Made by a program: the position numbers and the translations under genes. Positions 5,564-9,418 of a DNA stretch of 64,000 bases are shown piece after piece. The DNA lies in contig NC_020055.1 in NCBI RefSeq assembly GCF_000331025.1, forward strand, positions 2,389,370-2,453,369, given 5' to 3'. The stretch is from Maridesulfovibrio hydrothermalis AM13 = DSM 14728 (GTDB taxonomy: Bacteria > Desulfobacterota > Desulfovibrionia > Desulfovibrionales > Desulfovibrionaceae). The stretch's first letter is position 1; each line of letters opens with the position of its first letter. The notes under the pieces were generated by a model that ran no database searches, was not told the DNA's origin, and saw only the letters and a list, made by a program, of their open reading frames with translations.

Positions 5564-6442
5564 CTAAATAATACCGTTTTCTTTGAGAACCGTTTTGAGC
5601 TTAATTTCATTATCGCTCATGAGCGGTACTATCGGTAGTCTGAAGGATGCTTCAAGTTTGCCCATCATTCCGAGTGATGTTTTTACCGGAATTGGGTTGG
5701 TTTCCATGAACATTGCTCTGTTAAGCGGCTGCATTTTGTAGTGCAGTTCTTTAGCTTTGGCTATGTCGCCAGCTTTAAATGCTGCGCACATGTCAGACAT
5801 CATTTTAGGGGCAATATTAGATACAACAGATATTACGCCATGCCCGCCAATGGACATAAGCGGTAATACTGTGAAGTCGTCGCCCGAAAATATTACGAAT
5901 CCTTCAGGGCATTGCTCAATGACATCGGAGCACTGAATAAGGTTTGCAGTTGCTTCCTTTATGCCGACAACATCCGGGACTTCATTTGCAATCATGGCCA
6001 CGGTTTCGGGCAGGGCATTCAGTCCTGTTCTTCCGGGGACATTATAAAGAATGAAAGGCATGGATGCTTCTGCTGAAAGAGCTTTAAAATGGGCAAGCAA
6101 TCCTGCAGGAGTCGGTTTATTATAGTATGGTGTAATCTGGAGGGTGGCATCTGCGCCTGCCTGTTTAGCAAGCTGAGTCAGGTTTACGGCTTCTTTAGTA
6201 TTGTTTGAACCCGCGCCGGCGATGACCGGGACACGTCCCTTGGCCTGCTCGACACAGATTCTAATAACCTCACCTTGTTCGTCATGGGTCATTGTAGCCG
6301 CTTCACCGGTCGTTCCGCACGGGACAAGACCGTTGATTCCTTGTTCAATCTGCCATTCGATCAGTTCACGGTATGCGTCCTGATCAATCTCTCCGTTCTT
6401 GAACGGAGTGACCAGAGCAGTGAATGCTCCTTGGAAAGTCAT
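5564..6442 (-). CDS. dapA: 4-hydroxy-tetrahydrodipicolinate synthase
   Basis: DapA condenses pyruvate with aspartate semialdehyde at the entry to lysine and diaminopimelate synthesis. The 292-residue TIM-barrel has the Schiff-base lysine K162 (VVGIKEAT), Y133 in ILYNVPGRTG and T44-T45 in PCGTTGE. Length and numbering match E. coli DapA within one residue. GAGGC lies seven bases before the ATG. It is the last gene of the long minus-strand run and starts 20 bases after the UshA-like selenoprotein gene, so the two are probably cotranscribed. Confidence 0.96.
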   Translation of the reverse strand: MTFQGAFTALVTPFKNGEIDQDAYRELIEWQIEQGINGLVPCGTTGEAATMTHDEQGEVIRICVEQAKGRVPVIAGAGSNNTKEAVNLTQLAKQAGADATLQITPYYNKPTPAGLLAHFKALSAEASMPFILYNVPGRTGLNALPETVAMIANEVPDVVGIKEATANLIQCSDVIEQCPEGFVIFSGDDFTVLPLMSIGGHGVISVVSNIAPKMMSDMCAAFKAGDIAKAKELHYKMQPLNRAMFMETNPIPVKTSLGMMGKLEASFRLPIVPLMSDNEIKLKTVLKENGII

Positions 6443-6462: not shown

Positions 6463-7356
6463 CTATTTCTTTTCGTCCGTAATACCACTAAGCAGCTTTG
6501 CGACTTCAGGTTCCTCGCGAACCTTGATCAGCAGTGTTTGCAGAAACCATTTGATGTTTTTGCCGGACGTCCATTTGAAGTCTGGACTTCTGGCAGGAAA
6601 CTGTAAAATGTCAATTCTGCTTACTGCTTTTCCGGTAGGGTAGCTGCGAACCCATAAAGTCTTACCATTTGCGGCAAGGCTTCCGGTCATCCCCGGGCCG
6701 TCTCCGCTACCCAGAAGTAAATCAGGAGGAGTCTCAGCTATAGCCGGAGAAGCGAGAAATCTTTTTTCTCTAAAATAACTCCAGGGACTAAGGGCGATAA
6801 CTATATCAGCCTTGCTCCTGCTCTCTTTAAATATTGCCGCACTTTCGCTTAGCAAATCATCAGAAATATGATCAGACCCTTTTTCTAAATATGGAAGAAT
6901 AATGATTGCCGCTTTTTTACCGTTTTTAAGAGGCTTGGTGACAATTTTAAAATTCTTACAATTAATCCAGTTTTGCGGAATCCCAAGGGGGCCTTTTTGC
7001 AAAAACTGAAATTCAGCAGGGCTGATAATACCTAAATCATAATTGATGATTTGGAAAGCTTCAGTGAGCGCATTTCTTTTTTTATCGGATAGTTCTTCGC
7101 CGGAAGTGGGAAGAAATTCATATGCACCGCCAAGCAGAAGTACGTCCTGCTTCATTGCCTGTCTTAAATCCTGAAGATAACCAGCCCGCCGGGCCAGTCC
7201 GCCAATGGTCTTGTTTCCTCAGGTGGGGCAGGGGTTGACTGTCCCGAAGGTATTGGCAGTGTTTGCAATAGACAATAGTACATCCTTGCCAGCGTGAACA
7301 CTCATTGGTGTCCCTACACTGGCAAGGATAAGAAAAACAAATATGAAAAACCGCAT
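6463..7356 (-). CDS. Exported UshA/5'-nucleotidase-like protein, probable selenoprotein (in-frame TGA)
   Basis: Read through the TGA at 7219-7221 as selenocysteine, the frame gives 297 residues. Residues 1-22 form a signal peptide (hydrophobic core from F3, cleavage likely after VHA). A C43-P-T-Sec46 motif follows, then the GGLARRA segment typical of UshA-type 5'-nucleotidases. The ATG at 7354-7356 overlaps the HU stop codon as TAATG. A hairpin starts about 10 bases after the TGA. A conventional call would start at M68 (7155) and lose the export signal and redox motif. The usual metallophosphoesterase ligands appear replaced (IANTANTFG, LLLGGAYEF, GIISPAEF), so nucleotidase activity is doubtful; a periplasmic thiol/selenol redox role is an inference. 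The alternative is a nonsense mutation in a Cys or Trp codon. Confidence 0.8.
7179..7221 (-). promoter_or_regulatory. Sec UGA codon and candidate bacterial SECIS hairpin
   Basis: The UGA occupies 7221-7219. Downstream on the minus strand GACCA (7210-7206) pairs with TGGTT (7183-7179, one G-U). GGC (7203-7201) pairs with GCC (7194-7192) around the apical loop GGACTG. The loop begins 18 bases after the UGA and has G in its first two positions. E. coli fdhF has 17 bases between its UGA and SECIS loop. The internal loop is asymmetric, so the fold is plausible but not ideal. Confidence 0.6.
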
Positions 7357-7631
7357 TAAGCGTTCAAATATTCCTTGAGTTCCTTACCGGGACGGAAAAA
7401 CGGTAATTTTTTAGGAGTAACAGAAACTACGTCCCCTGTTTTGGGGTTTCGTCCGGTGTAGCCTTTGTATTCTTTCATCTTAAAGCTGCCGAATCCTCTG
7501 ATTTCAACCCGGTCGCCGCGAACAAGCGCTTCTTTAATAGAATCAACAAATGCATCTACGATTTCGGCTGAATCATCAACATGAAGTCCTTTTTCTTCCG
7601 CAAGACTCTTAATCAGTTCGCTTTTGTTCAT
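7356..7631 (-). CDS. hup: HU/IHF-family DNA-binding protein
   Basis: The 91-residue protein is a nucleoid-associated dimer subunit that bends DNA. It shows the family pattern: two N-terminal helices, VEIRGFGSFKMKEY, the DNA-binding arm with GRNPKTGD (residues 60-67), and FFRPGKELK at the end. GGAGA precedes the ATG at 7631. The stop codon overlaps the start of the downstream selenoprotein gene as TAATG, suggesting translational coupling. A second HU-type gene lies at 22976-23248, so paralogues coexist. The HU-versus-IHF choice is uncertain. Confidence 0.93.
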   Translation of the reverse strand: MNKSELIKSLAEEKGLHVDDSAEIVDAFVDSIKEALVRGDRVEIRGFGSFKMKEYKGYTGRNPKTGDVVSVTPKKLPFFRPGKELKEYLNA

Positions 7632-7726: not shown

Positions 7727-8551
7727 TTAGTCGGCCAGTGCAGGAAATTTTTTCATGACAGGTTTTTCGCCCAGTTTGCCCATATTTTCCATACGCGTCT
7801 TTTGTATTTTAACAGCAATATTAAGGATATCGCGGCTTGCATCAGACTTGGGGGCGAACTTGAGAAATGGAATCTGTCGTCTAACTGCTTCAGTTACGGA
7901 TGGATCATAGCGTACAAAACCCATATTTTTCAACCTAATATTCAGAAATTTTTCGCATGCCATGTTCAGGCGGTCAAAAGTATCCTTTGCTTCTTTGGAA
8001 TTTGCGGCCTGATTGACAATAATATTGAAGTCGCTGACATTGTGATTAGAGTGCAGAACTTTGATAAGCGCGTAACTGTCTGTAAGCGAGGTTGGTTCAG
8101 GGGTTATTACAACTATTCTCATTTGAGTCATGGCGGCAAAGGAAAGAACTGTGCCGTTGATTCCTGCGCCCAGATCAAGGACCAGAAATTGATATCTGCC
8201 GACAAGCTTGGTTAATTTGCTAAATAGCATTTCCTGCATGTCTTCATCCATTTCAACCAGTTCCGGTACACCGGATGCCGCGGGAAGAATATCAAACTTT
8301 CTGCCTTCTTCGATGGGAATGACAATGTCAGAGGGTTTTGCGTCGCTGAGCAGGATGTCCTGCATATTATTTTCCGGAGAGATACCGAGCAGTACGTCAA
8401 GGTTGGCAAGGCCCAGATCACAGTCCATAAGCAGTACACTGTTACCGCCGATGTTGAGTGCATAGGAAAGATTTAAGGACAGGTTGGTTTTTCCCACTCC
8501 GCCCTTGCCGCTCATAATTGCAAGGCTCATAGTTTTATTTGCGTTAATCAT
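7727..8551 (-). CDS. MinD/ParA-family ATPase, FlhG (YlxH)-like
   Basis: The 274-residue ATPase has the deviant Walker A motif SGKGGVGKTN at residues 14-23. Walker A' (LLMDCDLGLANLDVLLG) and Walker B (FLVLDLGAGI) follow. The DLGLANLD wording and length match FlhG/YlxH, which sets flagellar number and placement, rather than chromosomal ParA. It follows a diguanylate cyclase gene by 15 bases on the same strand, which fits a surface or motility-control context. No flagellar genes adjoin, so FlhG is a family-level inference. The basic C-terminus could act as a membrane-targeting segment. Confidence 0.82.
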   Translation of the reverse strand: MINANKTMSLAIMSGKGGVGKTNLSLNLSYALNIGGNSVLLMDCDLGLANLDVLLGISPENNMQDILLSDAKPSDIVIPIEEGRKFDILPAASGVPELVEMDEDMQEMLFSKLTKLVGRYQFLVLDLGAGINGTVLSFAAMTQMRIVVITPEPTSLTDSYALIKVLHSNHNVSDFNIIVNQAANSKEAKDTFDRLNMACEKFLNIRLKNMGFVRYDPSVTEAVRRQIPFLKFAPKSDASRDILNIAVKIQKTRMENMGKLGEKPVMKKFPALAD

Positions 8552-8566
8552 GATATATCTGATCCT

Positions 8567-9418
8567 TTAAGTTCCCGTGAATAAAAATTTTTTCTCATTG
8601 GCATGGACAAGGGTTTCTCTGGTTGTTGACTCATAGTCAATGATATCAGCTGTGCAAACTTGGTCCTTTCCTGATTCCTTGGCCTTGTAGAGGGCTTTAT
8701 CAGCCTTATCGATTAATTGGCGCATATCGGTGTTAACGATGCCTTTGTAGCATACTATTCCGGCAGAGCAGGTAATGGAAAAACTTTTTGAATTATCCGG
8801 GGTGGAGAATTTTAAAGCTTTGGCTTTGTCAAGAAGCCTTTCAACTAGTTGCTTGGCTTTAAAAAGTCCTACTCCTGATAAAATAAGCGCAAATTCTTCT
8901 CCGCCTATTCTAGCTACAAGGTCGTATCTGCGCAACGTGTGTGCAATCATTTCTGCAAAATCAATAAGCACTTCATCGCCTTTCAAATGGCCCCATGTAT
9001 CGTTGACTTTTTTGAAGTCATCAAGATCCAGAATAGCCAGACTTAAAGGTGTTTTATTTCTGCGGGACCGTTCTATTTCCTGATCAAGCAGTCTTTCAAA
9101 TACTCTGCGGTTTGAAAGTCCGGTTAATGGATCATGTTCAGTCTTGTATGAAAGTTTTTGCAGAACATTTTGAACATGGTTCAGATGTGGAGTCATATCA
9201 CTGTTCACGGGAACAGTCAGCCAGTCATTTAAACCGTGACGTTCCGCCAGAATTTCCCATGCATCTAAAGTCATGCCGGGACAGATACGCAGCACAGCCA
9301 GTCCTTCAGGGCAGCTCTGTGAACTGCATGTTTTGCTCTCCCTGCAGAAATGTTCTCTGATCGAGAGCAGTTCATCCAGAAGGCTGGCTTCGTTTTCAGC
9401 AATGTATTCAGCGCTCAT
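8567..9418 (-). CDS. Diguanylate cyclase (GGDEF domain)
   Basis: The 283-residue protein makes the second messenger c-di-GMP from two GTP. The GGDEF domain covers about residues 92-255: DPLTGLSNRR near 96-105, the active-site loop G172-G-E-E-F176 and the CSAGI strand. An allosteric inhibition site, R163-R-Y-D166, lies five residues before GGEEF, so product feedback is expected. The N-terminal 90 residues have no recognised sensor domain but contain four cysteines (C25, C31, C36, C46) that could bind a metal or sense redox. The start overlaps the prfB stop by 11 bases, implying translational coupling. Confidence 0.92.
   Translation of the reverse strand: MSAEYIAENEASLLDELLSIREHFCRESKTCSSQSCPEGLAVLRICPGMTLDAWEILAERHGLNDWLTVPVNSDMTPHLNHVQNVLQKLSYKTEHDPLTGLSNRRVFERLLDQEIERSRRNKTPLSLAILDLDDFKKVNDTWGHLKGDEVLIDFAEMIAHTLRRYDLVARIGGEEFALILSGVGLFKAKQLVERLLDKAKALKFSTPDNSKSFSITCSAGIVCYKGIVNTDMRQLIDKADKALYKAKESGKDQVCTADIIDYESTTRETLVHANEKKFLFTGT

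Follow-up and report, generated by a model that had tools for sequence, protein, structure and literature searches.

An exported UshA-like gene in the window, the 64,000-nucleotide stretch of DNA analysed here, carries an in-frame TGA at codon 46 that, judged by comparison with homologous sequences, almost certainly codes for selenocysteine (Sec). The gene (6463..7356, minus strand) encodes 297 amino acids when the TGA is read as Sec. Its frame runs from 7356 to 6463 and is open except at TGA 7219–7221, as the first-pass annotation, which named no strand, had proposed. From the TGA to the stop there are 251 codons, not the 230 given in that annotation; the latter figure belongs to an open reading frame of 230 amino acids that begins at the next in-frame ATG, at 7155. 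The start codon (ATG, 7356–7354) shares one base with the stop codon (TAA) of the HU gene (7356..7631, minus strand), an overlap that had already been noted, and residues 1–22 (7291..7356, minus strand) fit, by inspection, the probable signal peptide described upstream of the TGA. Sec is the last residue of a redox-type motif, C43-P44-T45-U46 (7219..7230, minus strand), that is invariant in all 18 rows of an alignment of the window with 17 of its 29 relatives' loci (L010–L038), so the CPT that had looked conserved is indeed so. After U46 come G-N-K-T-I and then the GGLARRA seen earlier, and the whole stretch reads PCPTU-GNKTI-GGLARRA.

Homology excludes a chance open frame: 43 of the 58 genomes searched with the protein (its own included) match it, and 43 of the 47 match rows hold exactly one TGA, the other four none. 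The same TGA is found in all 16 other genomes of the genus that were searched, and PCPxUGxxxxGG(L/V)(A/T)RR occurs in 30/30 loci found by protein similarity. We also searched 84,980 species genomes with a DNA pattern in which position 46 could be TGA, TGC or TGT, and it returned 36 loci, every one with TGA. This pattern is strict and misses deviating members: P, C, P, G, GG and RR are set in advance, and Leu54 may not be TTA or TTG. Twenty-five of the 36 loci were aligned with the window, 11 being left out because they are cut by contig ends or have fewer than 200 codons after the TGA, and the invariance of P, C, P, G, GG and RR in that alignment is by construction, because the pattern fixes them. 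The locus sets are not additive, since some named loci come from the same genomes as others (L089 and L015, for example). Two copies show a change of frame. The frame of L112 (Salidesulfovibrio brasiliensis) stops 60 amino acids past the motif start and the match goes on in another frame, hence a frameshift or an assembly error, and the match to a PCPTU copy, L163 (G025:C2), falls into two parts that lie in different reading frames.

Where the family lacks the stop codon, Cys takes its place. All 14 full-length no-stop copies of the family examined (13 from a 150-genome sample of the order, plus one from G023 with PCRTC) have Cys at position 46, a count that leaves out one weak no-stop match (G049:C82, E 5e-4). 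Seven of the 13 (L141–L147, genus g277) follow HU in a tandem pair whose first copy has Cys and whose second has Sec; L148 and L149 lie alone between HU and dapA; and L150 belongs to a genome (G481, 85% complete) in which no selA was found. Mapped on a 48-row tree (35 Sec, 13 Cys), the Sec/Cys label switches three times, and three to four times in bootstraps; well-supported branches alone force only one change, and several rows are long. Among more distant no-stop copies, L068, L160 and L162 have CGC, L161 has EPEGCGC and L164 has the second Cys only (PTQMCGG); no motif was found in L128.

The genome carries the full Sec apparatus, with selA (601.6 bits), selB (389.7 bits), selD (330.8 bits) and a tRNA-Sec, selC (83.3 bits, anticodon tca). 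Its selD (L048, G000:C2:575466-576386) contains one in-frame TGA and is therefore probably itself a selenoprotein gene. The order sample, 150 genomes including that of the window, has the family in 88 at E 1e-15, and selA (E 1e-60) is present in 82 of these. Five TGA-form genomes (G044, G052, G465, G478 and G490; 63–94% complete) gave no selA match at that threshold, and the sixth selA-less genome has the Cys form. A further 51 genomes of the sample have selA without the UshA-like gene; no genome of genus g32, which belongs to the same taxonomic family as the window, is among the 88 of 150 that match, though most have selA. The first-pass annotation had named an unrelated residue or a gap at position 46, or missing sel genes, as observations that would speak against Sec; we looked for each, and none occurred among the family 2 members or in the genome.

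Comparison also supports a SECIS element just downstream. The putative hairpin (7179..7199, minus strand) has a 9-bp stem and a GGC loop, and its core is formed by the codons of L54-A-R-R-A58 (7183..7197, minus strand), here CTG GCC CGG CGG GCT. The loop does start with G, as had been remarked; its likeness in distance to E. coli fdhF is only rough. Counted from the TGA, the stem begins after 19 nt and the loop after 28 nt, and the fdhF loop lies about 10 nt nearer its own TGA. The evidence for the hairpin is comparative: the window sequence alone, folded as four stretches, does no better than shuffles (z −0.25 to −1.03). Among relatives, however, the synonymous sites of these five codons are frozen. 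Measured in 45 genes against pooled codon usage, they reach z −16.1, −15.2, −16.1, −10.3 and −6.0, values that ignore relatedness, and other conserved columns mostly fall between −3.5 and +1.2. The exceptions among those columns are −8.0 (P42), −7.0, −6.3, −5.7, −4.4 and −4.4, so A58 by itself would not stand out. Part of the Leu54 freeze is by construction, because the pattern bars TTA and TTG, while it left the third positions of Ala and Arg unconstrained; at Leu54, Sec copies that fall outside the pattern use CTG or TTG.

In the stem, 47 of 53 different Sec sequences keep all five core pairs, against 12% expected from random synonymous codons; so do 9/9 further Sec copies, compared with only 4/13 Cys copies. 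Four of the seven tandem Cys copies (L144–L147, genus g277) retain a SECIS-like stem. At pair 31-47, 27 of the 53 sequences have C-G, 9 have the compensatory G-C and 17 leave it unpaired. Taken together, the nine pairs are 86.8% paired, whereas shuffled versions reach 82.4% and slid ones no more than 50.5%. The covariation score and the number of cells changed on both sides lie above all 500 shuffles; of the five covariation measures, two show no excess over shuffles, namely how many pairs changed on both sides and how many pair types there are. RNAalifold alone predicted four of the nine pairs. Only genes that fit the DNA pattern entered the freeze, 53-sequence pairing, covariation and RNAalifold sets. 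In the window the TGA region can also pair at greater length with UUCAGG, an arrangement that, by eye, is not kept among relatives, and four Rfam matches in 7000–7400 were rejected, all being under their gathering scores. The frozen LARRA codons place the SECIS within a conserved protein motif that it also constrains.

The first-pass annotation left open whether such a gene had been described as a selenoprotein. It has: the read-through protein matches the NCBIfam model NF049981, "UshA-like (seleno)protein family 2", with 296.9 bits (E 1.3e-88, cut-off 140) over model positions 1–261 of 262, whereas the part from the next ATG alone scores 213.6 bits. The accessible part of a 2026 review (PMC13188914) includes a table that lists "UshA-like selenoprotein family 2, NF049981, CxxU", with the source given as "GenBank annotated". 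On these two grounds the selenoprotein family of the window gene is already catalogued, and the gene is an ordinary member in which we found no difference. An older UshA-like family (CxU, COG0737) appears in the accessible parts of PMC2398784 and PMC9312934. Family 1, NF041198, has the same kind of domain, with its motif in the same place before GGLAR. It differs in having CxU (PCGU) where the window protein has CxxU (PCPTU) and in mostly possessing a C-terminal domain with four CxxCH motifs; the window protein scores 37 bits against it, below the cut-off of 275. Across the window's phylum, 153 of 395 sampled genomes match the class (E 0.001), only six of them over the family 2 cut-off. We saw no function given for either family in the accessible portions of the literature matching NF049981, NF041198 or UshA-like selenoproteins.

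Comparison supports a 5'-nucleotidase fold without a surviving metal site. The structure predicted with 25 relatives, Sec being modelled as Cys, has a pLDDT of 90.3 and a pTM of 0.88, with residues 47–49 below 50. Its PDB matches are led by 5'-nucleotidases: human CD73 (4h1s) is hit at E 1.2e-13 and E. coli UshA (1ush) at E 4e-12. A profile comparison with the UshA of the same genome gave 96% probability. The predicted model resembles the N-terminal domain of UshA/CD73 5'-nucleotidases and SoxB with a TM-score of about 0.6 on the query. No thioredoxin is among the 50 matches listed of 1212 (E 10), which by their titles are nearly all 5'-nucleotidases, and Pfam found neither a thioredoxin domain nor, at E 10, any other match, the C-terminal 5'-nucleotidase domain PF02872 included. 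"UshA-like" thus describes the fold alone, since the protein has neither the residues that bind the metals nor a C-terminal nucleotidase domain. We scored eight alignment positions that we take to be the UshA site residues DxH, GD, GNHE, H and GHxH. The window protein keeps none of the eight, as do 24 of 26 family 2 members; family 1 (21 rows) keeps 0–4, intermediates (15 rows) 0–3, and three plasmid-borne 5'-nucleotidases 7–8; the columns were defined on one of these three, L157, which has 8/8 by construction. An UshA-like 5'-nucleotidase of the same genome (L052, G000:C2:2469261-2470046) was rejected as the standard because it keeps only 5/8. Since the fold has lost its metal site, the protein probably does redox chemistry rather than phosphate cleavage.

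A possible electron partner is suggested by the sister family. Of 20 family 1 loci, 19 were readable, and in 17 of these (L121–L127, L129–L135 and L137–L139) four CxxCH motifs follow the Sec domain; L136 and L140 have none. Pfam placed Cytochrome_C554 at the C-terminus of all four family 1 proteins scanned. The window selenoprotein gene itself has no haem motif, and open reading frames with at least two CxxCH are absent from the 1173 stop-to-stop frames of the 36 named loci and from the first 20 kb of the window. Elsewhere in the same genome, L051 encodes a separate small cytochrome like the family 1 C-terminal domain (NF041198 positions 401–519, E 1.5e-23, below the family cut-off). Of the 88 genomes that have the gene, 77 also have a tetrahaem cytochrome of this kind, versus 27 of the 62 that lack the gene, which is only weak evidence because relatedness explains part of the co-occurrence. 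In two genomes, Sec paralogues (L154 and L155) have CcmF-like and TPR genes upstream and a P-type ATPase gene on the other side (L165:1225-7119; L166:2961-8538).

We therefore lean, with some confidence, towards a periplasmic Cys-Sec redox protein built on a dead phosphatase scaffold and linked to c-type cytochromes. SelB would read TGA 46 as Sec, helped by the hairpin of the LARRA codons, a step that comparison supports. The product would be an N-terminal 5'-nucleotidase domain of the UshA/CD73/SoxB fold, its dimetal catalytic site lost according to the alignment and predicted fold, and its Cys-x-x-Sec pair would sit in the first loop, a few residues past the place of the first metal ligands. 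C43 and U46 would most likely cycle between selenol/thiol and selenenylsulfide, reducing or transferring something bound in the old pocket, which may serve as the substrate site. Periplasmic c-type cytochromes are the most likely electron partners, or else clients in their making; we infer this link because the sister family has a fused cytochrome and two paralogues adjoin ccmF-like genes. Against it stand the neighbours of the window gene: HU, a MinD-like gene, a GGDEF gene and a dapA-like gene. A wider proposal, which we offer more tentatively and would rate at somewhat under even chances, is that the UshA-like selenoproteins of this phylum make up a separate redox class, in which a metallophosphatase fold without its metals has gained a Cys-Sec pair. 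Its tie to c-type cytochromes would be a fusion in family 1, a neighbouring ccmF-like gene in the two paralogues and a separate partner for the window gene. If true, the class would be a new kind of periplasmic reductase, a cytochrome-maturation factor or a sulfur/selenium-handling enzyme. Loss of the metal site, a fused cytochrome in the sister family and ccmF-like genes beside two paralogues together give the UshA-like class a concrete, testable functional hypothesis.

The strongest competitor, which we think unlikely though worth keeping in view, is a selenoprotein whose CPxU pair binds a metal or metalloid ion for trafficking or sequestration and does not cycle electrons. The predicted model puts C43 and U46 in a flexible loop and Sec is replaceable by Cys; moreover, the ATPase beside the two Sec paralogues matches PF00122 and has a CPC motif that, by inspection, resembles those of heavy-metal pumps, a neighbour that slightly raises our estimate for metal binding. 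However, the sister family joins the domain to haems, and the window gene has no P-type ATPase neighbour. Less probable again is a selenoprotein that has kept an UshA- or SoxB-type hydrolase activity, in which Sec would act as the nucleophile or as a new ligand. The 5'-nucleotidase fold is what one would expect of such an enzyme, and the SoxB model picks up the divergent L107 (E 2.4e-22) and L115 (E 7.8e-19), both under its cut-off, yet the metal-site positions are gone from almost the entire family and the C-terminal domain is missing. That TGA 46 genuinely ends translation, or arose by sequencing error, in a gene that is broken or begins at ATG 7155, is scarcely credible: an open frame does begin there, whereas the same TGA recurs across the genus and in every pattern locus, with frozen codons behind it and Cys counterparts elsewhere. 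Read-through as another residue, such as Trp, is just as implausible, given Cys in all 14 no-stop copies, the complete Sec apparatus and nothing found in its favour.

Around the selenoprotein gene, gene order is well conserved. Next to HU on the minus strand lie a MinD/ParA-like ATPase gene (7727..8551), which matched MinD models below their cut-offs, and a gene for a GGDEF (diguanylate cyclase domain) protein (8567..9418); the downstream neighbour (5564..6442, minus strand), which we take from its sequence to be dapA-like, turns up in 21 of the 36 named loci, although many of these are cut short. HU is present in 31 of the 36, and HU or the MinD-like gene in 34. The block PrfB - GGDEF - MinD-like - HU - selenoprotein - dapA is widespread among the named loci, as expected if the gene has long been inherited vertically, but it offers no clue to function. 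Divergent loci L107 and L115 have none of the block genes. Three Cys paralogues (L151–L153) adjoin prepilin/pilin-like and AAA ATPase genes, with Pfam N_methyl in the L151 neighbourhood, AAA_22 in those of L151 and L153, and L152 assigned by likeness.
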